Positions 1,591-36,720 of a stretch of 64,000 nt of DNA are shown piece after piece. Where the stretch lies: NCBI GenBank assembly GCA_017446095.1, contig JAFSRN010000008.1:186001-250000 (forward strand). Reading direction: 5' to 3'. The first letter of the stretch is position 1, and every line of letters begins with the position of its first letter. The notes under the pieces are model-generated. The model did not search any database. It had not been told where the DNA came from and saw only the letters and a list, made by a program, of their open reading frames with translations. The DNA is from Eubacterium sp. (GTDB lineage Bacteria; Bacillota; Clostridia; Oscillospirales; Acutalibacteraceae). A program made the translations under genes and the position numbers.

Positions 1591-1618
1591 AAACAGCCCT
1601 AAATATAGGGCTGTTTTT
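1591..1618. terminator. bidirectional terminator between the KAP and integrase genes
   Basis: AACAGCCCTA and TAGGGCTGTT form a 10-bp stem with a 2-nt loop, flanked by A-runs and T-runs, so it can stop transcription from both convergent genes. Confidence 0.85.
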
Positions 1619-2774
1619 AATCTGTATGGTTATCTTTTTCTTTGGCATATTCAGCAAGACGTTTTCTGTTTTGCTCGAAGACCTCGTCAACCATATGCGT
1701 GTAGATTTTTGAGGTAACGGATATATCGCTATGTCCCATTAACTCTTTTGCCACATTCAGCGGCACACCTGCCGCCTGACAATCTGTGCAGAAGGTGTGG
1801 CGGAGGAGGTACGGCTCAAGGTCTGGCGCAAGTGTGCTTTTGGTTATTTGATTTCTGTATACTGTTGCACCGTTGGCAATATCCATTTGGTGATAGAAAC
1901 TGTGCCATGCGTGGTAGAAGGCATTGGTGTCCATTGGTAGTTCGTAGTTTTTGTATCTTACGAATACCCATTCGTTGTTTTGTCCTTTCAGCTTGTGTTC
2001 CAGTAATGCCGTTCTAAGCTGCGGAGGTATCGGCAGGAGTCTGCCTTCACCAGCTTTTGTTTTAGATTTCGTTACTGTCAGCACATCTTTTTCAAAGTCA
2101 ATATCTGCCCATTTCAGATTGCGTATTTCTATCGGTCTGAGTCCGCAGTAGAGCATTGTAAGGAAGGCTGCACCAGCGTAATGCTTCTTCGCTGTTTCTA
2201 TTATTAACGCTCTCTCCTCGTCTGTAATCGGTCTGCGTGTGCCTTGCGTTACTTCAGGCAGTACAACATCCTCGGCAGGATTGTCGGGGATTAATTTTTG
2301 TTTTAACGCCCTTTTCAGTATTCGTCTCAACGTCATCCTTAATTTTGATACATACGGTTTGCTGTATCCTTTATATGAATTAATAAATCGCTGACAGTCA
2401 TCTTCTTGAATATCACACAGGCGGTAACTTTCAAAGTACGGAATGATGTGTGTATAAACATAACCCTTGTAATCGCTCTTGGTCTTAGCACTGACATCTG
2501 CATTTTTAATGTTCAGTTCATACCAATTATCAGCAAACTCCTTGAACGGCATATCGGAAGATACAGCCTTGTGTTTGTTCTTTTCCTGTTCCTGATAGTA
2601 GTCCTTTATCAGACCTTCCAACACCTTGCGACAGTCTTTCTCACTTTTTTTGGAGTGTGCAGTCAGCACATCGTATTCACCGTTAGCATTTTTGATTCGC
2701 TTGGTCATACGCCAACACTTAAAATTACCGTCTTTATCGTAGAGTCCGTACTTGATTCTTTTTGTTTCTGCCAT
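1617..2774 (-). CDS. int: tyrosine-type site-specific integrase
   Basis: This is a phage/ICE-type tyrosine recombinase of 385 residues. It has an N-terminal arm-binding region rich in Lys/Arg, a SAM-like core-binding domain, and a C-terminal catalytic domain with the first catalytic Arg in CGLRPIEIR, the box II LLRHTF, then MGHSDISVTSKIYTH ending in the nucleophile Tyr. I place the start at ATG 2774, not the upstream ATG at 2810, because GGAAGTG lies just before 2774. It is transcribed leftward, with an excisionase-like gene and mobilization genes upstream on the same strand. A tRNA/tmRNA-like 3' fragment lies about 330 bp upstream. Which att site it uses cannot be settled from the window: the tmRNA-like core and the tRNA-Gln repeats are both candidates. 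Confidence 0.93.
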   Translation of the reverse strand: MAETKRIKYGLYDKDGNFKCWRMTKRIKNANGEYDVLTAHSKKSEKDCRKVLEGLIKDYYQEQEKNKHKAVSSDMPFKEFADNWYELNIKNADVSAKTKSDYKGYVYTHIIPYFESYRLCDIQEDDCQRFINSYKGYSKPYVSKLRMTLRRILKRALKQKLIPDNPAEDVVLPEVTQGTRRPITDEERALIIETAKKHYAGAAFLTMLYCGLRPIEIRNLKWADIDFEKDVLTVTKSKTKAGEGRLLPIPPQLRTALLEHKLKGQNNEWVFVRYKNYELPMDTNAFYHAWHSFYHQMDIANGATVYRNQITKSTLAPDLEPYLLRHTFCTDCQAAGVPLNVAKELMGHSDISVTSKIYTHMVDEVFEQNRKRLAEYAKEKDNHTD

Positions 2775-2896
2775 TGTATCACTTCCTTTCAGCAACACAC
2801 AATACCACAAAGGGATTTGAATATCCAGACATAAAATGATATTGTTTTATTGTGTTTTTACATAAATTATGATATAATATATATGAAATAAAGTTC

Positions 2897-3380: not shown

Positions 3381-4370
3381 TTACCAAATTAAACCCTGTT
3401 CCTGGTCCTGCTCATATGGCATATTGTAGGACATCTTCTTGTTGAGTTCAGACTTTGTAACCTTGTAGCCGTGCGCACGCATTTTCAGAACCAAAAGGTC
3501 CAGCACCTTGTCATCGACTTCGTAGTAATCGAAATTATCAAAGTCGGGTTCCGGCGTCGGCAGCGCTGCAAGCGTATCGAAGATTAAGTTATCCAGCCCC
3601 GTTGTGCAGTCGCCTGACTTCGGCGTTTCATAAGTTTCAATCGTTTCTGCAAGCGGAGATTCACATCCGCTAAGCCAGAAATATGTTTGCAGATTTTCTT
3701 TCAGCAACCGTTCATCAAACAGTTTCGCATCTCGTACTCTGTGACCGTTTGCGTCTGTGTAGGTCATATACTTGTAGTCGGGATTGTACTTTACATCAAT
3801 TCCGTGCAGTCTCATTTTTTCAATGAAGTCCGACATCGAATACGACTCTTTCATCATCCGCAGCGCGATTATTTTGATTTCAAACTTCCAGCGCGGTTCT
3901 CGACTTCTGTCCGTCTTTGCCTCGGTTGTTTTGAATCCGTTTTTCTCACAAAGATAATTGCTGTAATTCTTGATGGCAATTAAATCCTGCGGTGCCACAT
4001 TCATTTTCTTTCCGTCAAGCATATTGACGGAATTGATAACAAAATGATTGTGCGTATGGTGGCGGTCAATGTGTGTCGCCACTAATACCTGATACCCGGG
4101 GAAGCAATGCTCCGCCATCTGCAAACCGATTTCATGTGCTTTCTCAGGTGTGATGTCATCATCTGAAGCGAAGGACTGAATCATATGATAATATGTTCTG
4201 CCGCCGAGCTTGTTGTACTTGAGCTTTGTTATTTCAAATTCATCGAGTACGCTCTCGGGCATACAGTTTACGCCGCTGATTAACTTGTCCTCGGTTTTCT
4301 CTTTCTGCGTTACATAGTTTACGATAATGCCTACTGATATTTTTCCAGAAGTGAGTTTAATAATCGCCAT
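3381..4370 (-). CDS. mobA: MobA/VirD2-type relaxase (MOB-P-like)
   Basis: This 329-residue protein has an early Tyr region (YHMIQSFASDD) and the three-His metal motif in HIDRHHTHNHFVINSV (about residues 100-115), typical of MOB-P/MobA nickases that cleave oriT and lead the strand in conjugation. Many relaxases of mobilizable elements are 400-550 residues, so this is a compact form that ends soon after the nickase domain. It overlaps mobC by 40 bp and starts at ATG 4370 behind GAGGTGG. No type IV secretion genes are in view, so the element would be mobilizable in trans rather than self-conjugative. Confidence 0.9.
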   Translation of the reverse strand: MAIIKLTSGKISVGIIVNYVTQKEKTEDKLISGVNCMPESVLDEFEITKLKYNKLGGRTYYHMIQSFASDDDITPEKAHEIGLQMAEHCFPGYQVLVATHIDRHHTHNHFVINSVNMLDGKKMNVAPQDLIAIKNYSNYLCEKNGFKTTEAKTDRSREPRWKFEIKIIALRMMKESYSMSDFIEKMRLHGIDVKYNPDYKYMTYTDANGHRVRDAKLFDERLLKENLQTYFWLSGCESPLAETIETYETPKSGDCTTGLDNLIFDTLAALPTPEPDFDNFDYYEVDDKVLDLLVLKMRAHGYKVTKSELNKKMSYNMPYEQDQEQGLIW

Positions 4371-4639
4371 ATCTTTGCCACCTCTTTTCGTGTATCACTC
4401 AAATCAACACACTCAATCTTACCCATATTTGCAAGGCGTGTTAACTGATTCAGATTGTTACCGATTGCGTTCAGTTCTTCATCAATTCCCGTCAGACCCG
4501 GTACAACATAAATGTCCTTACCGAGCGCAGCGTCACGAAGATACGGTGCCAACGAATCATACTTAACATATGCCTTATCTTCAATGATCTGCCGTTCTTT
4601 TTCCGTCACTCTGAAATTCAAAACGATATCTCTGTTCAT
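4331..4639 (-). CDS. mobC: MobC-like relaxosome accessory protein
   Basis: A small protein of about 102 residues with an N-terminal ribbon-helix-helix-like segment (VLNFRVTEKERQIIEDKA) and a C-terminal helix with the MobC signature around NAIGNNLNQLTRLAN (about residues 58-72). MobC proteins bind oriT and assist the relaxase. I choose ATG 4639 over ATG 4645 because AGGAG is properly spaced only from the former. It is the first gene of the mobC-mobA-xis operon, directly downstream of the oriT-like region. Confidence 0.85.
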   Translation of the reverse strand: MNRDIVLNFRVTEKERQIIEDKAYVKYDSLAPYLRDAALGKDIYVVPGLTGIDEELNAIGNNLNQLTRLANMGKIECVDLSDTRKEVAKIWRLLNSLLEKYQ

Positions 4640-4682
4640 ATCCATCTCCTAAAAAAACGGGGTTTGGGGCGCCAGCCCCATT

Positions 4683-4828
4683 GGCTTTGTATCGCCGCCT
4701 CGGGCGAGCGATATACAAAGCCGAAACTCGCCATAACCAAAGCATCTGTTAACATCTGCTTTGGTATGTATTATTTTTTTGAAAGGGTTTGTATATTGTT
4801 TGTGTACTAATTTTTGAACTGGGGGTAG
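4683..4828. other. oriT: oriT-like region upstream of mobC
   Basis: Two inverted repeats lie here. The first pairs GGCTTTGTATCGC (4683-4695) with GCGATATACAAAGCC (4708-4722). The second pairs ACCAAAGCA (4736-4744) with TGCTTTGGT (4757-4765). A CTGGGGGTAG motif follows at 4819-4828. Stem-loops of this kind immediately upstream of mobC/mobA are the usual oriT layout. The nic site itself is not identified. Confidence 0.55.
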
Positions 4829-4876
4829 TATAATTTTTATACCATTATCTCAACAGCATTTCAGTACAAGTTGAAT

Positions 4877-5179
4877 TTATGATTCTTTATTCTTAAGGGG
4901 AAGATTATGATTTTTCTTCGCCTCTGCTGACAATAGCTTTTTCCTTTCGGCAGATAGTTCGGGATTAATCCTAAATGTTAAGCGGTTTTTATTGATTTCA
5001 AATTCAATCATATCCGTATCAGCGTCAACGGATATTTTACATTGTTCGGGATAGTCAGCGGCTAATTGACGAAGCTGCTTTTTCAGTTTTGTATTGTATG
5101 TTCTGCCGTACATAATGCTGTCAGCTTCATTGAAATATATCTCCGTCACTTTATCCTTTTTCTTCATTCCGGTTCTCAT
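4877..5179 (-). CDS. conserved-looking hypothetical protein of the mob region
   Basis: About 100 residues, charged, with no transmembrane segment; family not recognised. I chose ATG 5179 (MRTGMKKKDKV) over upstream starts because GGGGTG lies 6-8 nt before it and the upstream extension is hydrophobic and non-conserved in appearance. The mixture of short beta-like (KISVDADTDMIEFEI) and helical segments suggests a small alpha/beta protein. It lies just upstream of the oriT-like region on the same strand as the mob genes and may be a mobilization accessory; that is inference from position only. Confidence 0.55.
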   Translation of the reverse strand: MRTGMKKKDKVTEIYFNEADSIMYGRTYNTKLKKQLRQLAADYPEQCKISVDADTDMIEFEINKNRLTFRINPELSAERKKLLSAEAKKNHNLPLKNKES

Positions 5180-5297
5180 AATCATCACCCCGCTTTCAAT
5201 TAAAGTTATCGGAACTGCCGCCATCATAATTATATCATTCAAGATAATATTTTGTAAAGATAGCAGAACACCACTGTACAAATATTGGGACACAAAA

Positions 5298-5330
5298 AGA
5301 GCCTTCGGTTAATCCGAAGGCTGTTTACTG
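5298..5330. terminator. hairpin terminator
   Basis: AGCCTTCGG-TTAA-TCCGAAGGCT followed by GTTTACTG, between two leftward genes. On the minus strand it would end the DUF952 transcript; an A-rich flank lies to its left. Confidence 0.6.
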
Positions 5331-5353
5331 TTCTATTCAAATAATTATGCTAT

Positions 5354-5722
5354 TTACACTTCTCTTCTAAATCCATTAATAGCATATTGTTTTAGTTCTT
5401 CATTTGGAATCCATTCTCTGTCGTCACTCCATAAGTGTTCATAGACACCAATGATTGCTTCTTGACTCAATATTCCATAGATATGTGGGAAATCAACTCC
5501 GCCGCCATCTTCCCATTTTACTTCACAATTTAACCGTTCAGTATCAATCAGAAGAATTACTCTTTCAGTGTAATCATCCTTAAAGTTTGGCGCCACAAGA
5601 TAATATGTATCTAAATCAGAGCAATGAATAAAGCCGAATTTTTTAAGGCTATATGAACCATAAGTGCCTGTTTTAATCTCTTTATAAAAACCATCTTTAT
5701 TTACACTGTGAATTATATACAT
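5354..5722 (-). CDS. DUF952 family protein
   Basis: This 122-residue protein matches the DUF952 pattern along its length: a Y..HS opening, a small-residue/SL..FGFIHCS segment (about 22-35), a hydrophobic VILLIDTERL strand, VKWE, and FPHIYG (about 79-84) near the C-terminus. DUF952 proteins are small enzymes or binding proteins of unknown function, sometimes fused to or beside metabolic enzymes. The start ATG 5722 lies inside the last codons of the upstream isomerase gene (10-bp overlap), so the pair is translationally coupled. Confidence 0.85.
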   Translation of the reverse strand: MYIIHSVNKDGFYKEIKTGTYGSYSLKKFGFIHCSDLDTYYLVAPNFKDDYTERVILLIDTERLNCEVKWEDGGGVDFPHIYGILSQEAIIGVYEHLWSDDREWIPNEELKQYAINGFRREV

Positions 5723-6492
5723 ATATTCATTGCTCCTTGATACGCTTTCTGTAAGAATTCTTTGGTGTCTTTATAAAAAGAATATTTTTTCATTACTTCT
5801 AACAATAGCGGGAACTGAATATCTACCGTTTTTAATATTCCTGACATTTCATTGAAATCAATAAACCCTTCGCCGATTGTAACATGGTCTGTGAATGGTT
5901 TTATTCTGTCAGAAATATGTACCGCTATTAATCGGTGCTTCCACTTTTTCAATAGTTCCATAGGGCGTGGTCCGTCAATTTGGTCGTGTGACGAATCATA
6001 GCAAAAGCCTATATAGTCCGAATTTGCTAACGCAAGCATTTCTTCTAACACCGCTGTTGCTCTCCCGGGACAGAGGTTTTCAAGTGCAACTTTAGTATTG
6101 TACCTTAAACATAGCTTTTCAAGTTCGGCAATTGAGTTCTTTAACAACTTAATATTGCTTTCGTCAAGCGTTTCCTTGCCCATAAAAGAACTGCAATGCG
6201 CTACAATTACAGGACAGTTAAGTTCATTGGCTGCTAACATAGTTTTTTCCATTTTTGGCAGACAATCACTCGTATTAAGAGCTTGCGAAAAATGAATAGT
6301 ATCAATTCCCAAATTATTGTTTTCCAATGCGCTTTTTATTTCTGATGTTCTTCCGATTTCAAGCAATCTACTATGTTCTAAATTTGAACCAAGCGAAATA
6401 TGAGTAAAGCCCGCCTCAGCAACATACTGCATTTGTTTTTCAAGCGGAATATTATAATCAAAACAAGTTGAAATAGATATACCTTTACTCAT
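5713..6492 (-). CDS. sugar phosphate isomerase/epimerase-type TIM barrel
   Basis: A 259-residue protein of the xylose isomerase-like/AP endonuclease 2 superfamily. The sequence alternates strands and helices; metal-ligand candidates are E in VALENL (about 136-141), D/H in CYDSSHD (about 164-170), H in VHISDR, and E near the C-terminus in LLLEVMKK. Members isomerise or epimerise sugars and inositols or cleave AP-DNA; substrate cannot be assigned. It starts at ATG 6492 behind GAGGTAAAGCG and overlaps the DUF952 gene. The pair diverges from the radical SAM cluster across a 700-bp gap. Confidence 0.85.
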   Translation of the reverse strand: MSKGISISTCFDYNIPLEKQMQYVAEAGFTHISLGSNLEHSRLLEIGRTSEIKSALENNNLGIDTIHFSQALNTSDCLPKMEKTMLAANELNCPVIVAHCSSFMGKETLDESNIKLLKNSIAELEKLCLRYNTKVALENLCPGRATAVLEEMLALANSDYIGFCYDSSHDQIDGPRPMELLKKWKHRLIAVHISDRIKPFTDHVTIGEGFIDFNEMSGILKTVDIQFPLLLEVMKKYSFYKDTKEFLQKAYQGAMNICI

Positions 6493-7190: not shown

Positions 7191-8342
7191 ATGCCACATT
7201 GTAACAAAAAAATGATTTCGTTTTTTTTGACAACGAAATGCAATCTATGTTGTAGATATTGTTATAACGCAAACGAACGAAATGCAATCAAAGAACAAAC
7301 GCTTCCCATTCATATTGCCAAAGCTGGTATTGATTGGTATTTTCAAAACAATGATAGCCGACATATTAGATTTTATGGTCCTGGTGAGCCCACTCAAGAA
7401 TTTGAGAAAATGAAAGAAATTACTGAATATGCTAAGGCACATTCTAATCGAGGTAAAGATGTAACTGTAGAAATACAAACAAACGGAGTATTTACCGAAA
7501 ATGTTCGTAATTGGGCTCTTGATAATATCAACATTATGTGGGTGTCATTTGATGGGATGAGGGATATTCAGGACTATAATCGTCCACTCAACCCGAAATA
7601 TTCCGCCATTTTTGACAATAGAACGTCAGGCGAAATACTCGAAAGTAACGTCAAATGGCTGATAAAAAACACCGGTGATAGGAAACTCATGGTCGGAGCA
7701 AGAGTTACTATTACCGATAAAAACGTTGACAAGCAGCTTGAGATGGTTGATTACTTTTACAATCTCGGCATTCGCTACGTATGGACGAACCCATTATTCT
7801 ATAGCGTTGGTAAAATTCCTGTCTGTGATGATAAAAGAAAACAAAACAATTATCATTTTGATATGAATGCCTACCTTAATAACTATTTGAAAGCATACTA
7901 TTATGCAAAAGGGAAAGGACTGTTTTGGGGAAGTTTCTTAACTATTAATTTTGATGGAGAATCGGAACATCATTGCCGTTGCTGCACTCCGCTTAATGCT
8001 CCACATCTAACACCGGATGGGTATATTTCAGCTTGTGATATGGTGGTTTTAGGTTCCGAAGCATATCACATGGATCCTTTTATTGTGGGAAGATGGAATG
8101 AAGAATCCGAGTTGTTTGACTTTGATTACAAAAAAATAGATGCCTTACATAAACGAAAATCAACACTAATGAAACACTGCCAGAAGTGTCCAGCAAAAAT
8201 GCATTGTGGAGGATATTGTTTGGGAGAAACCCAAAATGAAACAGGACGACTAGATGGACAAAATTTAGTTAAATGTAATGCTGTTAGATATTTATTTTCC
8301 GAGTTGGGTTCGAGTGAACCTTATAAGTTTTTACATCCGTAA
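7191..8342 (+). CDS. radical SAM/SPASM-domain enzyme
   Basis: A 383-residue protein with the 4Fe-4S/SAM motif CNLCCRYC (C17, C21, C24), a glycine-rich FYGPGEPT strand, and a C-terminal Cys-rich SPASM-type region (HCRCCTPLN near residue 262; HCQKCPAKMHCGGYC near 335; a final C near 365). SPASM enzymes are peptide/protein modifiers: anaerobic sulfatase maturases and RiPP thioether, epimerase or crosslinking enzymes. No RRE domain or precursor peptide was found next to it. It starts at ATG 7191 behind AAGGATTAAA and is the first gene of a co-directional run to 12,751. Family call firm; substrate unknown. Confidence 0.9.
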   Translation: MPHCNKKMISFFLTTKCNLCCRYCYNANERNAIKEQTLPIHIAKAGIDWYFQNNDSRHIRFYGPGEPTQEFEKMKEITEYAKAHSNRGKDVTVEIQTNGVFTENVRNWALDNINIMWVSFDGMRDIQDYNRPLNPKYSAIFDNRTSGEILESNVKWLIKNTGDRKLMVGARVTITDKNVDKQLEMVDYFYNLGIRYVWTNPLFYSVGKIPVCDDKRKQNNYHFDMNAYLNNYLKAYYYAKGKGLFWGSFLTINFDGESEHHCRCCTPLNAPHLTPDGYISACDMVVLGSEAYHMDPFIVGRWNEESELFDFDYKKIDALHKRKSTLMKHCQKCPAKMHCGGYCLGETQNETGRLDGQNLVKCNAVRYLFSELGSSEPYKFLHP

Positions 8343-8365
8343 TGTCATATTTTGGAGGTGCTTAA

Positions 8366-9547
8366 GTGAATTATGATAACATGTCAAGAGAAGAATTGAT
8401 TAAAGTGCTTGAAAGTTTAGAACAACAAAGAGCATTCACTTATGAAGATCAAATGAAACTCAAGATTTTAGACCAATCACCGTTTACCATTTGGGCTAGT
8501 GATAGAGATTGTAAGATTACTTTCTGGGATGGTCAATGTGAACATCATTATGGATATACAAAAGAAGAAGCAATCGGTTATGACTATGTTAATTTGTTTG
8601 TTGACGAAGATGAAAAAGATGCTGCCAGAGAAGACCAGATAAAAATCATTGATTATGGCGAGGTTTTTCATAATATTGCAAATGATCATGGTAAAGATGG
8701 GAATATTCTTCATTTAATTACTAATTGCCGAAGGATTCGCGATATTAAAACTGGGGACTATTGGAATGCAGAAATGGGTCTAATAATTGATTATATCGAG
8801 GATGAGAAAGAACGTCTTAATCAAGTTGTTTCTGAAAGCAGAAAAGTTAAAGCGTGTGTTTCTCAATTCATTGCAAGTGTTAACCAAGACAAAGAACAAT
8901 TTGCTAATAGAAGGAAAGCAATAAATACATCCATTCGCTCATATGAACGTATTGCTATTTCTAAAGGCAAGCGAAAAGAATTCAAAAAAAGTGTTGCAAT
9001 TGTACGAGATGCAATAAGAAAAATCGATGAACAGTTAAATTCAACAATTGAACAATATTTTGATTCAATTCAGTTATGTAGAACATATAGCTCATGTGAA
9101 CAAACAAGATTAGACTTTATGAAAGTCTATGAAGAAATACTAGATAAATTCGAAGATGTTGTATTGGATATTGAAGAAATTGCACAGGAGCTTAATTGTT
9201 CAAGTAGTGTGGTTTCAAGTCGAGATTCTGTTATGCGTGACACTGGAGTTAAAAACAGGCTATTAATCAATTTTGCTCACGATCTATTAATGAAAGCCGA
9301 AAGTGAAATAGCAGAATACAAAGGATTAAATGTTATTCAAAACGCTAAAAGATTACAACTTCTTACAGAGAGAAGAGACAGAATCCAAGAGATCAAAAAT
9401 CAGATTGATGAATTTGTTGATTGTATCTATGAAAAACTTCTGGATGCAGAAACCGAAGATTCAATTAAATCTTTAAGAAGAGATATGGAATCTAGTCTAA
9501 CAATATTTGAAAACACATTAAAACAAATAAAGGAGGAAATGAATTGA
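8366..9547 (+). CDS. PAS-domain protein with long coiled-coil region
   Basis: A 393-residue soluble protein. Residues about 32-145 form a PAS domain (SPFTIWASDRDCKITFWD, then Y.YTKEEAIGYD). The remaining 250 residues are highly charged, predicted helical coiled coil, with no histidine kinase, GGDEF, HTH or methyl-accepting signature. It probably senses a small molecule or redox state and acts by protein contact. The start is GTG 8366, five bases after GGAGGTG. It is 23 bp behind the radical SAM gene and 4 bp ahead of the membrane-protein gene, so it is part of the same operon. Confidence 0.8.
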   Translation: MNYDNMSREELIKVLESLEQQRAFTYEDQMKLKILDQSPFTIWASDRDCKITFWDGQCEHHYGYTKEEAIGYDYVNLFVDEDEKDAAREDQIKIIDYGEVFHNIANDHGKDGNILHLITNCRRIRDIKTGDYWNAEMGLIIDYIEDEKERLNQVVSESRKVKACVSQFIASVNQDKEQFANRRKAINTSIRSYERIAISKGKRKEFKKSVAIVRDAIRKIDEQLNSTIEQYFDSIQLCRTYSSCEQTRLDFMKVYEEILDKFEDVVLDIEEIAQELNCSSSVVSSRDSVMRDTGVKNRLLINFAHDLLMKAESEIAEYKGLNVIQNAKRLQLLTERRDRIQEIKNQIDEFVDCIYEKLLDAETEDSIKSLRRDMESSLTIFENTLKQIKEEMN

Positions 9548-9551
9548 ACAA

Positions 9552-9947
9552 ATGAACTGGATATATGAAAAAATCTGTATTCCATTAATGCTGGTTAATA
9601 ACAATGTATATGCTTTTTTAAGCGGCATTCTAATTTCTCTTTCAACAAATATTTTTACAACACTGTGCTTCAAACAATTTGATTTGGCAACGCAGTGGCA
9701 CATTTATTTGACTACGTTGTTGTTTGCCGCTTCCGGAGCAATATGCATATACTTGTCCACAAAGATGACTGCTTATCAAAACTATATTATCAACAAAAAA
9801 ATATTTGACTTGTCTGATCGAAAAAGCGTTATTCGTGATGTAACATTAGAAAAGAAAAAAATATGGACGATTGCTTTTTTGATTTTGTTTTTAACATTAA
9901 TCGCTGGAACTATTCTGTTAATTGTTAACTATGCCATAATAAGCTAG
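9552..9947 (+). CDS. small three-span membrane protein
   Basis: A 131-residue protein with hydrophobic segments at about 17-40, 48-68 and 107-130, and a positively charged loop between the second and third. Family not recognised. ATG 9552 lies 4 bp after the PAS gene stop; the nearest GGAGG (9532-9536) is about 15 nt upstream, so translation may depend on coupling, or on an ATT codon at 9543. As the only membrane protein of the cluster it may anchor the PAS/coiled-coil protein, which is an inference from adjacency. Confidence 0.7.
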   Translation: MNWIYEKICIPLMLVNNNVYAFLSGILISLSTNIFTTLCFKQFDLATQWHIYLTTLLFAASGAICIYLSTKMTAYQNYIINKKIFDLSDRKSVIRDVTLEKKKIWTIAFLILFLTLIAGTILLIVNYAIIS

Positions 9948-9979
9948 TAATTAAACGATTTTTTTAGGAGGTAAATTAA

Positions 9980-10813
9980 ATGAAAAAAGCACTTGTAACA
10001 GGAGTATCATGGAAAACAGGGATTGGGTTCGCAATAACCCAGCAGTTAATTAAAGATGGTTATTATATTTATGCAATTTATCACAGTGATGATTCAACAG
10101 CAAAACAATACTATGATGAAAATCCTAACAATATAGAGTTTATTCAATGTGACCTTGCAGACAGAAATTCAATCAAAAAATTGATTGATAAACTTTCTAA
10201 TGTTACCCTTAATGTAATAATCAATAATGCCGGTGCTTTTAGTGGTGATGAAGATATTAATAACTATGATATGGATGCATGGGATACTGTATTTGCTGTT
10301 AATCTTAATGCCCCACTTATGCTCAGTATAGGATTGAAACATAATTTAGAAAAAGGTTCTGTAATCATCAATATGGTGAGTACTGATGGTTTAAAGGGTT
10401 CGTTTACAAGCATGGCTTATGCAGCAAGTAAGGCAGCACTCATCAATCTTACGGACAGTTTAGCGATAAACTTTGGATATGATGACAAAAAAATACGTGT
10501 TACAGCAATTTGTCCAGGCTGGGTTAAAACCTTTGATGAAAAAGATTCAAATTCATCAGAAATGGTTCCTTTTATATCTCGCAGTACAGGTTCTCAGCTT
10601 TGTCCGTTAGAACGATTTGCAAACCCAGAAGAAATTGCTACTGTTGTAAGTTTTCTCGTTTCTGATAAAGCCAGCTTTATATCTGGAGGTTTTGTACCAG
10701 TTCACGGCGGATATAATGGGGTTTCATTTGATATGTTAGCAGAATCTGGAAGAAAATTTGATGGTTATCATCCTGAGGAGGCAATTAAAATACAAGAATC
10801 AAAAATGTTATAG
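9980..10813 (+). CDS. SDR-family NAD(P)-dependent oxidoreductase
   Basis: A 277-residue classical short-chain dehydrogenase. It has an N-terminal Rossmann turn (VTGVSWKTGIG, with a modified TGxxxGxG), NNAG (about 83-86), catalytic Ser in NMVSTDG, YAASK (the YxxxK pair, about 150-154) and PGWV after it. It oxidises or reduces a hydroxyl/carbonyl of unknown substrate with NAD(P). It starts at ATG 9980 behind a strong AGGAGGTAAATTAA. Its place in the cluster suggests tailoring chemistry on the same product as the radical SAM enzyme. Confidence 0.9.
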   Translation: MKKALVTGVSWKTGIGFAITQQLIKDGYYIYAIYHSDDSTAKQYYDENPNNIEFIQCDLADRNSIKKLIDKLSNVTLNVIINNAGAFSGDEDINNYDMDAWDTVFAVNLNAPLMLSIGLKHNLEKGSVIINMVSTDGLKGSFTSMAYAASKAALINLTDSLAINFGYDDKKIRVTAICPGWVKTFDEKDSNSSEMVPFISRSTGSQLCPLERFANPEEIATVVSFLVSDKASFISGGFVPVHGGYNGVSFDMLAESGRKFDGYHPEEAIKIQESKML

Positions 10814-10862
10814 ATACAACACAAAACTAACTTCTATCTATTTTAAGAAGGTGAAAAACAGA

Positions 10863-11921
10863 ATGAATGGACCAATAGCTGAATACACACCTCACAAAGG
10901 CACAATCGCAATGTATCCATTTAGAAATGACATTTGGAGAGACAATGCAATACACATGCAGGAATATGTGTGTAGCTTAGTTGATATCATTTCAAAATAT
11001 GAGACAGTTTACTTTTTTTGCGAATCAAGATTTATTGAAACCCTAAGAAAAAGATACATTAATAATTCAAATGTTATAATAATTAGTGCCAGCTATGACG
11101 ATATTTGGGCAAGAGATATTGGACCGTCTTTTATTAAAATTCACAATCAGATCAAGTGTGTCGACTGGAAATTTAATGCATGGGGAGGAGTTAAAGAAGG
11201 ATCGTATTATCCTTGGGATAAAGATGATGCTTTTGCTTCTTTCGTGGCTAATTACTTTGGATTTGAGAGCAATCGTTCATCAATTGTTGTTGAAGGTGGC
11301 GGTATTATAACTGATGGTGTAGGTACAATCTTTACAACACGTAGCGTATTATTAAATCGTAATCGAAATCCTTTTAAAAAGCAAGCACATATCGAGGAAC
11401 AGTTAAAGAAATCGACCGGTGCCACCAGAATAATATGGTTAAAACAAGGTCTTGTGTTAGATGAAACAAACGGTCATATTGATAATATTATGTCTTTTGT
11501 CAGTGAAAAAGATATATGTCTAGCATGGACTGATGATAGAAACAATCCAAACTATTCAAGACTAAGAATAATAGAGGATACACTTAAAGATTTAAAGAAT
11601 TTAAACGGTGAAAGGTATTCTATTCATCATGTACCTATGCCACCTCTACAACTTATGACAGAGCATGAATCAAGAGGTCTTTGCAAAGCTAATTCAATTG
11701 ATAGGAATTCAGGTGATGTCTTGCCTGCCTCATATCTTAATTTCTATATGTTTAATAATGCTGTTCTTATTCCATCTTTTAATTGCGAAACTGACAATGT
11801 TGCATTGGAATGTTTCAATAGGATATTTTCAGGTAGGAAAATTATACCGGTGTACAGCAGAGAACCTTTGTTAGGAGGCGGCGGAATTCATTGCTTGTTA
11901 CATGAAGTTCCAACATGGTAA
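10863..11921 (+). CDS. agmatine deiminase / peptidyl-arginine deiminase (PAD_porph) family enzyme
   Basis: A 352-residue guanidino-modifying enzyme. Recognisable features are the opening AEYTPHKGTIAMYPF, the active-site DDIWARDIGP (about 78-87), WKFNAWGG (about 104-111), the VEGGGI segment, NGHIDN (catalytic His/Asp) and a C-terminal GGGGIHCLLHE whose Cys is the nucleophile. The family hydrolyses agmatine to N-carbamoylputrescine, or peptidyl-Arg to citrulline. I place the start at ATG 10863 (AAGAAGGTG upstream), not at an upstream ATG that would overlap the SDR gene. No putrescine-pathway neighbours (ptcA, aguB) are present, so the substrate may be a cluster product. Confidence 0.9.
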   Translation: MNGPIAEYTPHKGTIAMYPFRNDIWRDNAIHMQEYVCSLVDIISKYETVYFFCESRFIETLRKRYINNSNVIIISASYDDIWARDIGPSFIKIHNQIKCVDWKFNAWGGVKEGSYYPWDKDDAFASFVANYFGFESNRSSIVVEGGGIITDGVGTIFTTRSVLLNRNRNPFKKQAHIEEQLKKSTGATRIIWLKQGLVLDETNGHIDNIMSFVSEKDICLAWTDDRNNPNYSRLRIIEDTLKDLKNLNGERYSIHHVPMPPLQLMTEHESRGLCKANSIDRNSGDVLPASYLNFYMFNNAVLIPSFNCETDNVALECFNRIFSGRKIIPVYSREPLLGGGGIHCLLHEVPTW

Positions 11922-11935
11922 AAGGAATATATTGT

Positions 11936-12451
11936 ATGAAATCTGTGTTAAATAAAAAAATCGAAATTCGAGAAAGCAGTGTCGATAAGACAGGAATGTT
12001 TGCTAAAGAATTAATATGTACTGGAGAAATAGTTTACATCAAAGGTGGACATATACTTTCTAGAGATGAATTGTATTCATCAAATGTTATTAATAGTTAT
12101 CTTCCAATATCAGATAATTATTTTTTAGGTGCAATTTCCTCAGATGAAGAGGAAGCAATTAAATTATATAACAATCATTCTTGTGAACCTAATTGTGGTA
12201 TGCATGGAGAGATAACATTTGTCGCTATAAGAGATATTCAACCTGGAGAAGAGTTAACGATTGATTATGCTTTTATTGATAATGAAGACTATTCTTTTGA
12301 GTGTCATTGTGGCTCTCCAGAATGCCGTCATACAATTACAGGTTTCGATTGGAAGATAAAACGATTGCAAGATAAATACTATCCATATTTTGCACAATAC
12401 CTAAAAGACAAAATTGATAGAATTAGGGCAGATAAAACGATTAATAGTTAA
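11936..12451 (+). CDS. SET-domain protein (lysine methyltransferase-like)
   Basis: About 171 residues with a compact SET domain: KTGMFA near the start, then NHSCEPNCGM (the SET NHSCxPN motif), FVAIRDIQPGEELTIDYAF (GEELxxDY), and a post-SET-like CHCGSPECRH that could bind zinc. SET enzymes transfer methyl from SAM to lysine; they are common in eukaryotes and sporadic in bacteria. ATG 11936 follows AAAGGAAT at good spacing; an earlier ATG at 11915 overlaps the deiminase gene by 7 bp and lacks an SD. It is likely part of the cluster operon. The protein substrate is unknown. Confidence 0.88.
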   Translation: MKSVLNKKIEIRESSVDKTGMFAKELICTGEIVYIKGGHILSRDELYSSNVINSYLPISDNYFLGAISSDEEEAIKLYNNHSCEPNCGMHGEITFVAIRDIQPGEELTIDYAFIDNEDYSFECHCGSPECRHTITGFDWKIKRLQDKYYPYFAQYLKDKIDRIRADKTINS

Positions 12452-12517
12452 TTAAAAGTGTGTTTTACAATCAATTAGACTTATTTCAGCAATAAAACTA
12501 TATAAGGAGATGATATT

Positions 12518-12751
12518 ATGTCTAGAGATGAGCATCACGTGGTTCCAAACCCAAATGGAGGTTGGGATATAAAGCGAAATGGATCTAATAGAGCAAGCGC
12601 TCATACAGAAATAAAGAAAGATGCAATTAATAAAGCGCGTATTATTAGCAGAAATCAAAATACGGAGCTTATTGTTCATAACAAAGATGGAAAAATTGCT
12701 AATCCTGATAGTCATGGAAATGATCCCTGTCCACCAAGGGATAAAAAATAA
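12518..12751 (+). CDS. DUF2188 family protein
   Basis: A 77-residue hydrophilic protein with the full DUF2188 pattern: HHVVPNPNGGWDIKRNG at the N-terminus, A...A...AR.I.RNQ in the middle and VHNKDGKIANPDSHGNDP at the end. Function unknown; the family is common on mobile elements. It has its own strong ribosome site (AAGGAGATGATATT) 66 bp after the SET gene. It is the last gene before the tRNA-Gln direct repeat. Confidence 0.88.
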   Translation: MSRDEHHVVPNPNGGWDIKRNGSNRASAHTEIKKDAINKARIISRNQNTELIVHNKDGKIANPDSHGNDPCPPRDKK

Positions 12752-12956: not shown

Positions 12957-12962
12957 AAAGCA

Positions 12963-13189: not shown

Positions 13190-13858
13190 TTATTGTTCAT
13201 TTATTGTTTCCAATATAGGCATTGTTTTTAAAAGATCGATTGTTCCGTGTGTTCCGTCTTCACGATTAGTAAAATACCGACCATTAAGGCTACCTGGCTC
13301 AGTAAATTTGAGACTGTTCCAACCATTATGGTTTTTTGTCTTCCAATCAACTTCGTTGGAATCATTAGAATATGAGAAAGTTAGCACTGCACCTCCTGCA
13401 ACATCAGTACTAATATACGCAGAATTACTGTTAGATGATGAATTATCAAATTTTGCATATATATGGATCTTATACCAATCTTGCTTTATTGTAAAAGTAG
13501 TTCCAACTTTAATGTGTTCGTCATTTTCGTCTTTGTATGAAGACTCCAATGCACCTGTCCACTCTCCAGATAAATCTGGCACACCGTGTATTTTTTGCAA
13601 CCATTTACATTTCCAAAGGCACTTAGAAAACAAAGTGTGTAAGGCGCTAAATATCACAAGTATTGAAAAAAGATTAGTTTCAACACCTATACCGTTTAAT
13701 GTGTTCATCATATTTCCAAAAATTGAAAATTTATCACTAATACTTTCCACAAGGGTATTTAATGGCGCGTAAACAATAGAACTAATAATAACACTAATAA
13801 CAAGCATTATTATTAATGCTTTCTTACGACTATCAGTATCTATGGAATAATTATGCAT
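13190..13858 (-). CDS. cap15: CBASS effector Cap15 (2TM plus beta-barrel)
   Basis: About 222 residues: two transmembrane segments (about 13-33 and 54-75) followed by a C-terminal beta-rich domain beginning PDLSGEWTG and containing FTIKQDWYKI and a Ser/Asn-rich turn, the pattern of the SMODS-associated 2TM beta-barrel effector. In characterised Cap15 proteins the beta-barrel binds a cyclic nucleotide and the TM region then disrupts the inner membrane, killing the infected cell. ATG 13858 lies within the last codons of cap3 with GGAG 10 nt upstream. It is the last gene of the CBASS operon. Family assignment is by motif and context, and the two agree. Confidence 0.85.
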   Translation of the reverse strand: MHNYSIDTDSRKKALIIMLVISVIISSIVYAPLNTLVESISDKFSIFGNMMNTLNGIGVETNLFSILVIFSALHTLFSKCLWKCKWLQKIHGVPDLSGEWTGALESSYKDENDEHIKVGTTFTIKQDWYKIHIYAKFDNSSSNSNSAYISTDVAGGAVLTFSYSNDSNEVDWKTKNHNGWNSLKFTEPGSLNGRYFTNREDGTHGTIDLLKTMPILETINEQ

Positions 13859-14345
13859 ACTTGTCAATCTCCTCTATATTTTTACTATATAAAAACCCAT
13901 CTCCACGCGTACTATCAATCGCTCCAATAAATAAACTGCCTTCACTGCCAAGAATTATCATGAAATAATGATTAAAAGAATTCGACTGGTCTTTAAAAAT
14001 TTGTTTTACTAAGCGTTTATCGGTTTGAGATGGTGATGGCGTTATCTCACAATGAGTATGCCATTCCCCCAAATAATTGATAACTCCACCTGATTCTTGC
14101 CAACTTTTATTGATGATTCTTTGTGCAGAATCCTTACTTCGCACAAAAGAAAACAATGACGATATATCGAATTTGGATGGACGAGAGATATTAGTAATGT
14201 AATACGTGTTATCGTTAATATCTTTTTTACCCAATAATACGCCTCCCGACTCATTAGAACTCCTGGTTTGTTTGTGTTTTAATAATTCTGTAATAACGTC
14301 TTCAGTAATTATTAATCTTAATTCTTGATCAAAATCAACGACCAT
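13851..14345 (-). CDS. cap3: CBASS Cap3, JAB/JAMM isopeptidase
   Basis: A 164-residue metalloprotease-like protein with the JAMM motif: upstream Glu in ESGGVLLG (E32), then EWHTHCEITPSPSQTD giving H96, H98 and the S106..D109 pair. Cap3 removes or reverses the conjugation of the CD-NTase C-terminus that Cap2 carries out. It begins 2 bp after the cap2 stop (AAGGATAG ribosome site) and overlaps cap15. The presence of both Cap2 and Cap3 makes this a full type II CBASS. Confidence 0.92.
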   Translation of the reverse strand: MVVDFDQELRLIITEDVITELLKHKQTRSSNESGGVLLGKKDINDNTYYITNISRPSKFDISSLFSFVRSKDSAQRIINKSWQESGGVINYLGEWHTHCEITPSPSQTDKRLVKQIFKDQSNSFNHYFMIILGSEGSLFIGAIDSTRGDGFLYSKNIEEIDKYA

Positions 14346-14347
14346 TA

Positions 14348-15985
14348 TTAGCCTATCCTTTCAACATAAACAGAGTTGTCCCTTAAATGACTCCATTTCG
14401 AATTAATTTCCACTCCAAAACCATTGTTGTGGAGATCGCCGCTCCAAATAATGTGATAGTTGTTATCGAGATACCTTCCTTGCATAAAGTCTTTTACAAA
14501 AGACCCAACAAATAACTTAACATTCAATCCAGAATAGGGCATATATGTCGAGTTGCAGCCAGCTTCTCGCTTGTAGTAATTATCAGAAGATTTGATAACC
14601 GGTTCATTAAAGTTCAGTTTCACATCGTATAGTTCCGAAAAAATGTCTTGAGGTTTGTTAAGTAACACTATATGACCGCATAGTGCATAAGGTTCAACCC
14701 ACATAATAACCAACGTCTTGCACAAGCAACCTTCATTATATTTTTCAACAAGGTGCATTTCTAATGGTGCCTCTGCAACAGTACATACAATAGTATCTGT
14801 AGCATCAAAAACATCAAGTCTGTTTTCCAATAATAGATTTACGTCTTCTGTATAATCTTTGCAATTAATGTTCGGATTGTGTTGTTGAATAGTGAATTTT
14901 AACGCTTTAGATTTGTGTATACCAACTAGTTCAAAGCCACATATATGTCTAGCAATATTATCTTCGCTTAGTAATTGATTATCTATTAATGTAAAATTAA
15001 ATGTTCCGCAACTAGCAAAAGCATCAACAATATGGCTTCCTAACGAACCGCATCCTACTACCCCAATATGGGTTTCATTTATTATTCCGTCTCCTCCTCG
15101 ACTAAATAAACGACTCTGCGTTAAATTCGATACAGCAAATTTTGTAATCGGTGCTTTTCCTAATCTGACCTTTAAGGAAACACCCAGTGGTGTATGACCT
15201 TCTCTAAAGCCTGGTATTTGAGGAATTCTTTCGTGTAGAAATCCAAAATACATATACGAATTATTATACTGTTGCGATAGAATGATCAAATGACCCCTTG
15301 GGTATTCCTTAGTTAAAAACTCTTCATAATCCTTATAATAGTAACTATTACTCTTTATAATTGAATCTATTTCTTCATGGCTTTTTGGAATATGTGATAT
15401 TGGCTTGTTTAGAGGAACATAGAAGCACTTTTTAATATCCTTATCGTTATGGTTTATTTGTAGCTCATCAAGTTTTTCCTTCAGGGTTTTTATATCATAG
15501 TGAACAAAAGCAGTACTGTTGAAATTACAGTATAGAACACTACACTCTGAAGACAATTCTGACAACAAGTAGAATTGATAATCAGAACTCGAAGCATTAT
15601 GCCAATATGTGCAGAATTCATCTAGATAATCTTCATTGTTATCACCGCATAAGTCTTTCTCAACAATCTTTTTTGCTTGACAGAAGCCAGCAATTATTAT
15701 GTTTTCAGGATGAGTCGGATCTGAAAATGTTTTTGATTTATCAAAGCAACATATTCTTTCTTTTTCTTCAATGTGCGGTAGTCCTTCAAGATAATTTTGA
15801 GAGTTTAATTCTATGTGTACTATCGGAAATTCATAAGGAAACGTATCGTCTAAAATTATATATAGTTCTATAAACTTGTCATCGACTAGGAATTTAGCCT
15901 TATATTGGTTGTGATCTATTAATACTTTAATATCATGTTCACTAAGCGATTTTGTGATATATTTGTTATCCAGATCTGCCATCAT
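14348..15985 (-). CDS. cap2: CBASS Cap2, E2-E1 fusion conjugating enzyme
   Basis: 545 residues. The N-terminal 130 residues are E2-like with a candidate active Cys in ERICCFD (C79/C80). The C-terminal half is a ThiF/E1 adenylation domain with GCGSLG (311-316), LIDNQLLSEDNIARH and the catalytic Cys in REAGCNS (C477). Cap2 activates and transfers the C-terminus of the CD-NTase to a target, priming the synthase. The start overlaps the CD-NTase gene by 20 bp, with AGGGGTG as ribosome site, so the two are coupled. Confidence 0.93.
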   Translation of the reverse strand: MMADLDNKYITKSLSEHDIKVLIDHNQYKAKFLVDDKFIELYIILDDTFPYEFPIVHIELNSQNYLEGLPHIEEKERICCFDKSKTFSDPTHPENIIIAGFCQAKKIVEKDLCGDNNEDYLDEFCTYWHNASSSDYQFYLLSELSSECSVLYCNFNSTAFVHYDIKTLKEKLDELQINHNDKDIKKCFYVPLNKPISHIPKSHEEIDSIIKSNSYYYKDYEEFLTKEYPRGHLIILSQQYNNSYMYFGFLHERIPQIPGFREGHTPLGVSLKVRLGKAPITKFAVSNLTQSRLFSRGGDGIINETHIGVVGCGSLGSHIVDAFASCGTFNFTLIDNQLLSEDNIARHICGFELVGIHKSKALKFTIQQHNPNINCKDYTEDVNLLLENRLDVFDATDTIVCTVAEAPLEMHLVEKYNEGCLCKTLVIMWVEPYALCGHIVLLNKPQDIFSELYDVKLNFNEPVIKSSDNYYKREAGCNSTYMPYSGLNVKLFVGSFVKDFMQGRYLDNNYHIIWSGDLHNNGFGVEINSKWSHLRDNSVYVERIG

Positions 15986-16913
15986 GCTTTAACACCCCTG
16001 GAGCAGAAGTCCTTTGAAATGAAGATGACTTAGAATTCGATCCTTTAGGAAAACGGGAACCAAAAACTTCTCTCATAATTTCTGCAGCCTTTTCTTCATC
16101 ACTTTCAATTATTGCATTATTCAATTTCTGTCTCAATGTTTTGAGTCTTGAAATGATATTATTTTTCTTTGAATCACTAACATCTTCAAATAAGTCATTA
16201 TAAGGTAATGACGGTTTTTCACAAATAAAATCCTTTTCAAGTGTATCAATAATTTGACTAACAGTTGCGTAAATTGCTTTATCATCCCTGTTTTCAAATC
16301 CTTCAAAATTTTCGCATGCTAATATTGTTATCTCAATGCTTTCTATATCAACATTTTTATAATCTTTCCACGCTTTTAAATATCTTACAATTCGCCGTAA
16401 TTGTTCTCCGTGCTCACTAATATTATCAAGAAACCAATCAGTGAATTCTTTAGGGTCACTTGGTGTCCAACCATCAGCTTTATGTGCAAGATAGGGAACT
16501 TCATCTCTAATTATATAGATTGGTAAATCTATATGATAGTCATCTGCATAGTTTACACGAACACATGTGTTTTTATCAATTGACTCTTTTTTTGTCCTAT
16601 AGTCGGTGGCATCTTTTATCCAGTTATGCACAGTTGAAGGAACAGGAAATTCATCAATCTCATAATCCTTATAGCCCTGCAAATACACTCCGTCATCTAA
16701 GTCATATTCGTCACCGATTTGAGGATTTATCGTGGTTTTCATAGCAAATGAACCTTGAACATAGAATTTCGGCTTGGTCTTCCCTTTGTCTTCAAACCAA
16801 GACCTAATATCAGATCTTAATGCATCTCTTCCTTTAATAAGATTCTTTGCTTTATTATCATTAAGTTTAATTTCGGAATTAAAAAGACCGAATAAATAAT
16901 TTAAATTAGCCAT
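15966..16913 (-). CDS. cdn: CBASS CD-NTase (cyclic oligonucleotide synthase)
   Basis: A 315-residue nucleotidyltransferase with the GS motif GSFAMKT (54-60), catalytic Asp pair in DLDDG (D71, D73) and third Asp in YHIDLPIY (D129). On phage infection such enzymes make cyclic di- or trinucleotides that activate the effector, here Cap15. The extreme C-terminus (GVLKHDGRSG) ends in Gly, as expected for a Cap2 substrate. It is the first gene of the four-gene operon, with AGGAGGTCATT before ATG 16913 and a near-consensus promoter. The clade (CdnB, CdnE or other) cannot be assigned by eye. Confidence 0.92.
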   Translation of the reverse strand: MANLNYLFGLFNSEIKLNDNKAKNLIKGRDALRSDIRSWFEDKGKTKPKFYVQGSFAMKTTINPQIGDEYDLDDGVYLQGYKDYEIDEFPVPSTVHNWIKDATDYRTKKESIDKNTCVRVNYADDYHIDLPIYIIRDEVPYLAHKADGWTPSDPKEFTDWFLDNISEHGEQLRRIVRYLKAWKDYKNVDIESIEITILACENFEGFENRDDKAIYATVSQIIDTLEKDFICEKPSLPYNDLFEDVSDSKKNNIISRLKTLRQKLNNAIIESDEEKAAEIMREVFGSRFPKGSNSKSSSFQRTSAPGVLKHDGRSG

Positions 16914-17907: not shown

Positions 17908-18852
17908 CTAATCAAAAACATCATTTATTGAATATGTTATTTCTTTTCCGTAAAAATAACCTTTAGCACACGTTGCTTTAGTGTTTGCAACATCTGGATC
18001 ATCTTCAATAAACTTGTTCAAAAAAAGCTCATTTATATTGTTTAATACTATATGAATATTTTTGACTAGTAATAGTCCTGAATCAATATGATTAAAGAAC
18101 ACATCGTTGGTAATAGCCAAAATAAACGGTTTTTTCTTTCCATGTCCTTTAGGTTTGATATTTGGAAATAATAAATCAAATGGGTTTTTATCTTTGTCTT
18201 TTATAGCAATTCTTATAGCTTGTTGAGCAGCTTCACACTTATTAATATCAATTAAAGTACAGTTTGCTGATATATCGCCTTCTTTATCAACATTAATTGT
18301 GAAGATTTTTGAAGAAAAATCCAGGTACCTTTCACATAAGTTTGACGATTCACTGTATCTTCCATTTGTGAAATGTGCCACTCTATTCCTTAACATATAT
18401 ATTTCCCAAAACAAACCTGGTGTATTCCTTGAAGGAAAGAAATCATTTAATTGTTTTTCTCCAAAATTATTGCAAAGGGCAGCCTTTTGGTCGCCCTCAA
18501 TTATGACACTAAATGAAGACACAAGTGCGTCAAAATAATACGCCGCTACTTCAAGTGTTTCATTTGGCATTGTTGTAACACCATTTTCATTTAAAACATT
18601 AGAATAGTGTTCCAAACCAGAAATCATATTCTGCAAATACTTATCAATAAAATACAGAACTTTGTTTTCTTTATAAACAAAATCATTCCATATTTCGTTA
18701 ATGTCATATCTTACCCTTGTTTCTTGACCTATTGGATTATCTCTTAACTTTTTGTTCATACAAGGAATAAACATAATATGTGATTGCTGAAGTATTTTTT
18801 GATTATTGTTTAATGCTTCTTTTGCTTTATTTACATATTCATCATAATTCAA
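17908..18852 (-). CDS. hypothetical protein with HEPN-like motif
   Basis: About 314 residues, soluble, mostly helical; no family firmly recognised. The segment LRNRVAHF (near residue 180) fits the R-x4-H signature of HEPN RNases and of related helical domains in defence genes. The start is uncertain: a GTG at 18861 is too near the GAGG, while TTG 18852 is well spaced (GAGGTGAAAAGA), so I use the latter. It lies between the excisionase and TipAS genes, on the same strand, in an island rich in defence genes. The HEPN reading is tentative. Confidence 0.6.
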   Translation of the reverse strand: MNYDEYVNKAKEALNNNQKILQQSHIMFIPCMNKKLRDNPIGQETRVRYDINEIWNDFVYKENKVLYFIDKYLQNMISGLEHYSNVLNENGVTTMPNETLEVAAYYFDALVSSFSVIIEGDQKAALCNNFGEKQLNDFFPSRNTPGLFWEIYMLRNRVAHFTNGRYSESSNLCERYLDFSSKIFTINVDKEGDISANCTLIDINKCEAAQQAIRIAIKDKDKNPFDLLFPNIKPKGHGKKKPFILAITNDVFFNHIDSGLLLVKNIHIVLNNINELFLNKFIEDDPDVANTKATCAKGYFYGKEITYSINDVFD

Positions 18853-18944
18853 TCTTTTCACCTCTTGCCGTTTTGTCCTGTATAATTATTCACAGTTGTT
18901 CATATCCTTAAACAACAAAACAGTTAAGATTTGACGCTCTCCAA

Positions 18945-23643: not shown

Positions 23644-23660
23644 ATTTCGCCTCCGTAATT

Positions 23661-23708
23661 GCAACGGGAACGGTGCAGGTTCCTGTTGTTGCTGCAGGTT
23701 CCCGTTGC
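23661..23708. repeat. perfect 11-bp inverted repeat upstream of the CoiA-like gene
   Basis: GCAACGGGAAC (23661-23671) and GTTCCCGTTGC (23698-23708) are perfect complements with a 26-nt loop containing a second CTGCAGG/GGTGCAGG similarity. It lies 18 bp before the CoiA-like start, in its 5' untranslated region, and may control its expression. Confidence 0.6.
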
Positions 23709-30142: not shown

Positions 30143-30204
30143 TATAATAGAGAAATCTGTTTTATTTTTATATATCCACTTATACTTTGGAAGGCTGTGA
30201 TAGA

Positions 30205-36708: not shown

Positions 36709-36720
36709 GGGGGCGGTAGT

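Follow-up and report, generated by a model that had tools for sequence, protein, structure and literature searches.

A radical SAM, SDR and SET gene cluster on a mobile low-G+C island of Eubacterium sp.: a possible small-molecule module with a variable membrane partner

Do seven adjacent genes of unlike families form one system, and on what would such a system act? The question is raised by positions 7191..12751 of a 64,000-nucleotide stretch of Eubacterium sp. contig JAFSRN010000008.1 (hereafter the window). There, open reading frames (ORFs) encode, in order, a radical SAM/SPASM enzyme, a PAS domain protein, a small transmembrane (TM) protein, a short-chain dehydrogenase/reductase (SDR), an agmatine-deiminase-related protein of the PAD_porph family (PAD), a SET-domain protein and a DUF2188 protein. 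The original prediction, made from the window alone, proposed either a modified-peptide pathway or a defence or signalling system in which a PAS sensor and its membrane partner control protein modification. Comparison of related loci points to a conserved unit of six genes that leaves DUF2188 out. Its predicted core consists of the radical SAM/SPASM, SDR and SET enzymes; the PAD enzyme appears to be optional, the membrane module variable, and DUF2188 a neighbour that is probably not part of the system. We tentatively favour the view that the cluster produces a small molecule and works together with a membrane partner that varies, possibly in defence. Full-text searches of open-licence papers showed, among the papers listed, no described system that matches it.

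Relatives of the cluster and its predicted core

A genome collection was scanned with six exact eight-residue patterns from a fragment of the PAD protein, a scan that is blind to clusters without PAD (such as L120, below) or with a distant PAD. It matched 88 stretches and gave 61 confirmed loci, of which 39 hold at least 15 kb and 4 less than 8 kb, so that some neighbourhoods are cut. Among the 61 PAD loci the cluster is present only in L050, from Petralouisia muris. L091 has a weak match to the SDR, and L109 a weak partial match to the radical SAM enzyme more than 6 kb from its PAD gene. The L050 genes follow the window order, PAS-TM-SDR-PAD-SET, after a radical SAM remnant, and the proteins are 74% (SET), 58% (PAD) and 60% and 75% (SDR, in two pieces) identical to those of the window. 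The remnant lies at the contig edge, where 24 codons before the PAS gene match the end of the window radical SAM enzyme (48% identity over 33 residues, E 2.3e-4; CEPYKYLHP compared with SSEPYKFLHP in the window). Ahead of it stand stop codons and an inverted repeat, short and recognized by eye, the whole lying within positions 1-160 of L050; the gene is either interrupted or cut by assembly. The L050 SDR is spread over two frames with a shift near a run of seven A (1985-2010), which reflects either decay of the gene or an error in sequencing or assembly. From 13 kb onwards the same contig (L127) carries ORFs whose translations, judged by eye, look like prophage proteins for replication and packaging; these begin some 9 kb beyond the cluster on its downstream side.

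A second relative was found with the L050 SET protein as query in 397 genomes of the L050 family. Three genomes matched: that of L050 itself, G983 (245 bits) and one at 20.6 bits. On a 7.3-kb contig of G983 (L120) the radical SAM, SDR and SET genes are adjacent; the radical SAM enzyme is 53% (tblastn) or 55% (alignment) identical to that of the window and the SDR 33%. The SET gene is followed by one for a 272-residue protein in which hydropathy marks two TM segments near the N terminus, and for which no family or PDB match was found. The contig gave no PAS, three-TM, PAD or DUF2188 match at E<=0.01, PAS and PAD not having been searched for elsewhere in G983. Upstream of the L120 core, and divergent from it, lie genes for an XRE-type regulator and a TGS-domain protein with a weak HD match (4996-6438 and 3971-5014, both plus), the latter resembling part of RelA/SpoT; these two may or may not be members of the core.

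In all three loci SET lies beside SDR, and the first gene of the set is a radical SAM gene or what remains of one. Because five genes and the remnant of the sixth recur in order in L050, and three in L120, the clustering goes beyond chance, and the conserved co-occurrence that had been proposed as a check thus holds in two further loci. The inclusion of the PAS protein and its membrane partner in the unit is borne out in two of the three loci. DUF2188 was rejected as a member, having no match at either the L050 or the L120 locus; the window protein (Pfam, 70.1 bits) instead matches a separate PADLOC candidate, PDC-S16, at 114.9 bits.

The members of the unit do not diverge alike. Between loci the enzymes are 53-75% identical, apart from the L120 SDR, whereas the PAS and TM proteins are 25-28% identical. 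Put as divergence of the window from L050, the values are 25-42% for the three comparable enzymes and about 72-75% for PAS and TM. This contrast, together with the different membrane protein of L120, argues for a core of enzymes joined to a membrane module that varies; the contrast would equally arise if the PAS and TM proteins were under relaxed constraint.

The system appears to be rare within the genomes sampled, each sample including the genome of the query or of a row of the SET alignment (A2). The window SET protein matched 7 of 398 genomes, the best other match scoring 36.4 bits. Alignment A2 matched 1 of 5 genomes, 1 of 150 from the window family, 1 of 60 from the window genus and 2 of 291 from the L050 class. 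The strong matches were the window's own in the 150 and the 60 and L050 itself in the 291, where the other match reached 19.4 bits. Searches of viral contigs with the radical SAM, PAS, SET and PAD proteins or with alignments A1 and A2 returned no relative.

Organization of the cluster

The claim of seven genes on a single strand with short spacing was confirmed, all seven ORFs being found on the plus strand where they had been predicted (table). The gaps, in gene order, are 23, 4, 32, 49, -7 or 14, and 66 bp; short gaps had rightly been claimed, the range given being 4-75 bp. The ambiguous gap depends on the start of SET. A start at 11915 gives a longer ORF, but the L050 and L120 proteins begin at a Met matching 11936, which makes 11936 the more likely start. 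The longest PAD frame opens at a TTG at 10758 and would overlap the SDR gene. Six of the seven proteins (radical SAM, PAS, SDR, PAD_porph, SET and DUF2188) score above the Pfam gathering threshold. One weak plus-strand terminator-like site was found within 7191-12751, at 8306, where the radical SAM gene is about to end, and the next lies at 12962. Promoter-like matches were not enriched over the cluster (29, compared with a mean of 31.6 in shuffled sequence).

Table. Features of the cluster and its neighbourhood in the window
Feature	Position	Strand	Evidence
Radical SAM/SPASM enzyme, 383 aa, predicted core gene	7191..8342	+	Pfam, NCBIfam, cysteine motifs
PAS domain protein, 393 aa, GTG start	8366..9547	+	Pfam PAS, NCBIfam sensory_box
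Small membrane protein (TM), 131 aa	9552..9947	+	hydropathy, three TM segments
Short-chain dehydrogenase/reductase (SDR), 277 aa, predicted core gene	9980..10813	+	Pfam adh_short_C2, YAASK
Agmatine-deiminase-related PAD_porph enzyme, 352 aa, probable accessory gene	10863..11921	+	Pfam, 317 bits; AguA, 334.7 of 381.8 bits
SET-domain methyltransferase with post-SET cysteines, 171 aa, predicted core gene	11936..12451	+	Pfam SET
DUF2188 protein, probable neighbour	12518..12751	+	Pfam DUF2188, PADLOC PDC-S16
CBASS operon: DncV-like cyclase, E1-E2, JAB, 2TM effector	13190..16913	-	PADLOC, Pfam
Schlafen-type helicase	20188-22164	-	PADLOC PDC-S41, 923 bits
MobA-type relaxase	3381-4370	-	Pfam
Tyrosine integrase	1617-2810	-	Pfam
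KAP NTPase/ATPase, beyond the integrase	175-1590	+	PADLOC PDC-S20, 166 bits

Sequence features of the proteins

The window enzymes keep their key motifs, as checked by script. The radical SAM domain is recognized by Pfam (Radical_SAM, 33.8 bits), and the SPASM region falls below the Pfam cut-off (14.1 of 21.5 bits) and above that of the NCBIfam domain model (30.5 of 27). The cysteine pattern is complete, with CX3CX2C at residue 17, CX9-15GX4C at 262 and CX2CX5CX3C at 330, and the cysteines of the radical SAM core and of the SPASM auxiliary clusters are present in both the window and the L120 enzymes. The best NCBIfam model for both is the maturase PapB (NF047865), at scores (99.6 bits for the window and 112.2 for L120) far under its cut-off of 340; among the 25 NCBIfam models listed for each enzyme, no maturase equivalog reached its cut-off. 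The enzyme begins 16 residues ahead of its first cluster cysteine, so that no N-terminal peptide-recognition domain fits; this leaves aside a separate recognition protein, for which no model search was made.

A precursor peptide beside the cluster was considered and rejected. The 40 window frames (21 upstream and 19 downstream, stop-to-stop, at least 20 residues) were compared with 35 frames from beside L120 and downstream of L050, and no pair scored better than E 0.57; L050 could contribute no upstream frames, its contig being cut there, and a distant precursor could escape this comparison. Thus the short conserved ORF that was to be looked for in relatives was not found in these regions, and with no space for a recognition domain the proposed modified-peptide pathway is not supported.

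Searches with the radical SAM enzyme returned 50 and 64 plasmid records, none above 31% identity among the 30 and 10 listed, and 9 partial matches in phages. The surroundings of three plasmid homologues (Methylocystis, Salmonella and Caballeronia) held no other cluster gene by tblastn. Among 398 genomes, 324 gave matches, the best other one at 68 bits and 24% identity; we take these to be other radical SAM enzymes, unclassified.

The SDR matches Pfam adh_short_C2 (144.9 bits) and carries YAASK as its YxxxK motif. The strict TGxxxGxG pattern matched none of the SDR sequences by script, and a longer-spaced glycine motif was seen by eye. The cluster copy is the best SDR match in both G589 and G983 (in the latter, 104.5 bits compared with 84.8 for the next best of four matches).

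The SET protein (Pfam, 54.7 bits) shows the motifs NHSCEPN, ELTIDY and CHCGSPEC, the last with the post-SET cysteines, and is 67-68% identical to its L120 counterpart. Among solved sequences BurB is the best match to its last 112 residues (42.2 bits, compared with 38.5 for KMT2A), with the BurB match confined to 57 residues. BurB is a SET-domain methionine S-methyltransferase of the dimethylsulfoniopropionate (DMSP)/malleicyprol pathway of Burkholderia thailandensis, reported to methylate free methionine (PMC12542666, PMC7496086). Its contacts with methionine are described as mainly through main-chain atoms (PMC12542666), so that the sequence of a relative cannot decide methionine S-methylation. 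On plasmids, 35 records of SET homologues were found, and seven hand-chosen surroundings were examined. Four hold small-molecule genes: a PGM1 ligase with a lysine aminomutase; an aminotransferase/HAD/SDR set; speD/speE; and a GHMP kinase, a pyridoxal phosphate (PLP) enzyme and an alanine racemase. As these homologues are only about 28-36% identical, the surroundings count as a hint. On Leptospira interrogans plasmid p1 (L128, 3956-4822), a SET-like stretch lies inside an annotated S-adenosylmethionine decarboxylase gene, between speD and speE.

The PAD protein keeps the AguA motifs WxRD, NGHID and GGxIHC with its cysteine, which serve in catalysis. Neither cluster copy reaches the AguA equivalog score (TIGR03380), the L050 protein scoring 350.4 bits of the 381.8 needed (the window score is given in the table). 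The five best solved sequences, at 208-223 bits, are agmatine deiminases and one PAD-named relative, whereas the chains named simply peptidylarginine deiminase, which we take to be the Porphyromonas enzyme, match at just 35-40 bits. The protein is a diverged relative of agmatine deiminases. In a tree of 60 rows (L109 and L110, from the 60 other loci, being dropped with fewer than 200 residues aligned), the window and L050 proteins form their own clade with support of 100/100 on a stem of 1.86 changes per column; the bootstrap was not fully settled, and the composition of the window row is unusual. Both carry the cysteine motif GGGGIHCxLHE. Among the other 58 rows the motif is readable in 48; all 48 end in TQQ or SQQ, 43 have GGGN and one GGGG. 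From the differing cysteine motif and the separate clade we infer that the substrate of the cluster enzyme has changed. No other agmatine deiminase relative was found in the window's own genome; plasmids gave 65 agmatine deiminase records.

The PAS protein is recognized by Pfam PAS (26.9 bits) and NCBIfam sensory_box (39.6 bits). It has no kinase domain match in Pfam or NCBIfam and no TM segment by hydropathy, and its C-terminal part lies outside recognized folds. It shares 28% identity with the L050 protein by tblastn and 25% in the alignment. A plasmid search returned two weak records, and among 197 genomes two matched, its own and one at 18.8 bits. The TM protein matches no Pfam or NCBIfam family above cut-off; it is 27% identical to its L050 counterpart, with FxSGIxxSLSxNIFTT common to both. 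The PAS and TM genes, 4 bp apart in the window, overlap in L050.

Possible function of the cluster

On the reading that we tentatively favour, the radical SAM/SPASM, SDR and SET core would make or remodel a small molecule, with the agmatine-deiminase relative as an optional further tailoring step. The membrane module, which consists of the PAS and three-TM proteins in the window and of the protein with two TM segments in L120, would sense a trigger or the product and act at the membrane. The position of PAD nearest the agmatine deiminases, a small-molecule family, speaks for this reading, as do the C-terminal match of SET to BurB, the small-molecule genes around four of the plasmid SET homologues and the short stretch ahead of the radical SAM motif. 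It had been predicted that PAD and SET act on protein side chains; that is not a necessary consequence of their families, given this placement of PAD and the use of a free amino acid by the SET enzyme BurB (PMC12542666).

Several known systems resemble the cluster in part. BurB is likewise a small stand-alone SET domain that acts within a multi-enzyme cluster. Its partners, as far as the excerpts of the source name them, are a decarboxylase, a transaminase, the dehydrogenase BurE and a thiotemplate assembly line (PMC7496086); in contrast, these partners have no Pfam counterpart in the window cluster, the SDR possibly excepted. PapB-type maturases supply the best-matching model for the window and L120 radical SAM enzymes, but the scores are low, and no precursor was found near the cluster. 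AguA shares its motifs with the window PAD and is set apart by its equivalog score, its cysteine motif and the long branch of the cluster enzymes.

A likeness of form exists to the cyclic oligonucleotide-based antiphage signalling system (CBASS), in that conserved enzymes are combined with a membrane component that varies between loci, here beside a real CBASS operon. However, the six genes include no nucleotide cyclase (CD-NTase) and their enzymes are unrelated; the cyclase belongs to the separate minus-strand operon. Viperins are radical SAM enzymes that make a small antiviral molecule and are not known to carry SPASM. The window radical SAM enzyme has a weak partial match to the prokaryotic viperin model of PADLOC (pVip), but reaches 34.8 of the 180 bits of the NCBIfam viperin model.

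The genes around the window copy suggest a role in defence or stress. By analogy with CBASS, the cluster might represent a class of immune or stress systems that is new and works through small molecules, in which the core enzymes would build a signal or toxin other than a nucleotide, exchangeable and fast-diverging membrane modules would respond to it, and PAD would be optional; in this extended form we consider the proposal unlikely. Should the core be a biosynthetic module tied to exchangeable membrane partners, this would mean signalling or immune chemistry that is not nucleotide-based, and a bacterial SET enzyme would have a natural role of a rare kind. A weaker reading would still leave a conserved radical SAM-SDR-SET pathway of three small enzymes with intact motifs, of which we found no description.

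A number of observations weigh against the small-molecule and defence proposals. The best named families for the radical SAM enzyme are peptide or protein maturases. Over its full length SET is closer to the histone lysine methyltransferase KMT2A (47.8 bits) than to BurB (40.9), and three of the seven plasmid SET contexts hold no small-molecule genes. None of the six genes fully matches a model in PADLOC-DB 2.0.0, the pVip match of the radical SAM enzyme being limited to residues 9-125 (36.5 bits). Three L050 proteins scanned with PADLOC gave nothing better than E 0.004, and of five from L120 the regulator alone matched, through its helix-turn-helix part. The defence surroundings are those of the window copy only. 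Three loci are known in all; one of them, L050, looks damaged, and another lies on a short contig.

Among the alternatives, a protein-modification switch fares best, though it is itself rather unlikely. Here a protein, such as PAS, its membrane partner or one of the host, would carry the target side chains (lysine, others or arginine) of the SET, radical SAM and PAD-like enzymes, and its modification would switch the sensor or the membrane protein paired with it. The ranking of the full-length SET protein nearest protein lysine methyltransferases is consistent with it, as is the action of the best named radical SAM/SPASM families on peptides or proteins; the tight coupling of the PAS and TM genes would provide a built-in protein target. 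However, the L120 contig keeps the enzymes with no match to PAS or the small TM protein, which makes either of these unlikely as the common target. Moreover, PAD resembles agmatine deiminase, and no short target ORF is common to the loci.

The cluster could also be antagonism or natural-product cargo that yields a secreted peptide or metabolite, with the TM protein conferring immunity and the PAS protein acting as regulator. Among named families, those closest to the radical SAM enzyme come from modified-peptide pathways, and SET homologues occur in clusters that look biosynthetic. Against this stand the lack of a precursor common to the loci, the lack of any Pfam or NCBIfam match to a transporter or peptidase in the six-gene unit, the missing space for an N-terminal recognition domain and the low PapB score, and we regard this explanation as unlikely.

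Finally, loose cargo, that is genes of separate function brought together by chance on a mobile island, is very improbable: with three loci only, membrane and PAD genes that come and go, a damaged L050 copy and SET relatives missing from nearly all sampled genomes it has some appeal, but L050 keeps order and strand over five genes, and the sixth in a remnant, and the enzymes are 58-75% identical between the window and L050 despite differing neighbour genes.

Genomic surroundings

The cluster lies in the low-G+C part of the window. Calculated per kb, G+C ranges from 29.6 to 43.8% over the first 27 kb and from 41.4 to 54.8% between 27 and 57 kb, with two more low values at 57-59 kb. The predicted mobile-element setting is supported by the integrase and relaxase genes, both on the minus strand (table). 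The CBASS operon directly adjoins the cluster in the opposite orientation, its cyclase being encoded at 15966-16913, and the Schlafen-type helicase and the KAP NTPase also fall within the low-G+C stretch. PADLOC matches at E<=1e-5 were obtained for 9 of 22 scanned island proteins, or 7 of 22 when the radical SAM and Fic proteins, which match in part, are discounted, 4 of the 7 belonging to the CBASS operon; none of 10 ORFs taken from the neighbouring higher-G+C part matched. Both sets were hand-picked, and the integrase, the relaxase and some other island ORFs are outside the 22.

Other ORFs of the window may be mentioned. At 17908-18861 (minus) the island encodes a 317-residue protein that neither Pfam (E<=0.001) nor PADLOC (E<=1e-5) recognizes. 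The 394-residue product of 22480-23664 (minus) has as its sole Pfam match above gathering a C-terminal PcrA/UvrD-type tudor domain (28.9 bits), with no helicase. In the higher-G+C part, two very large neighbouring ORFs of 2173 and 1379 residues occupy 30187-40860 on the plus strand.

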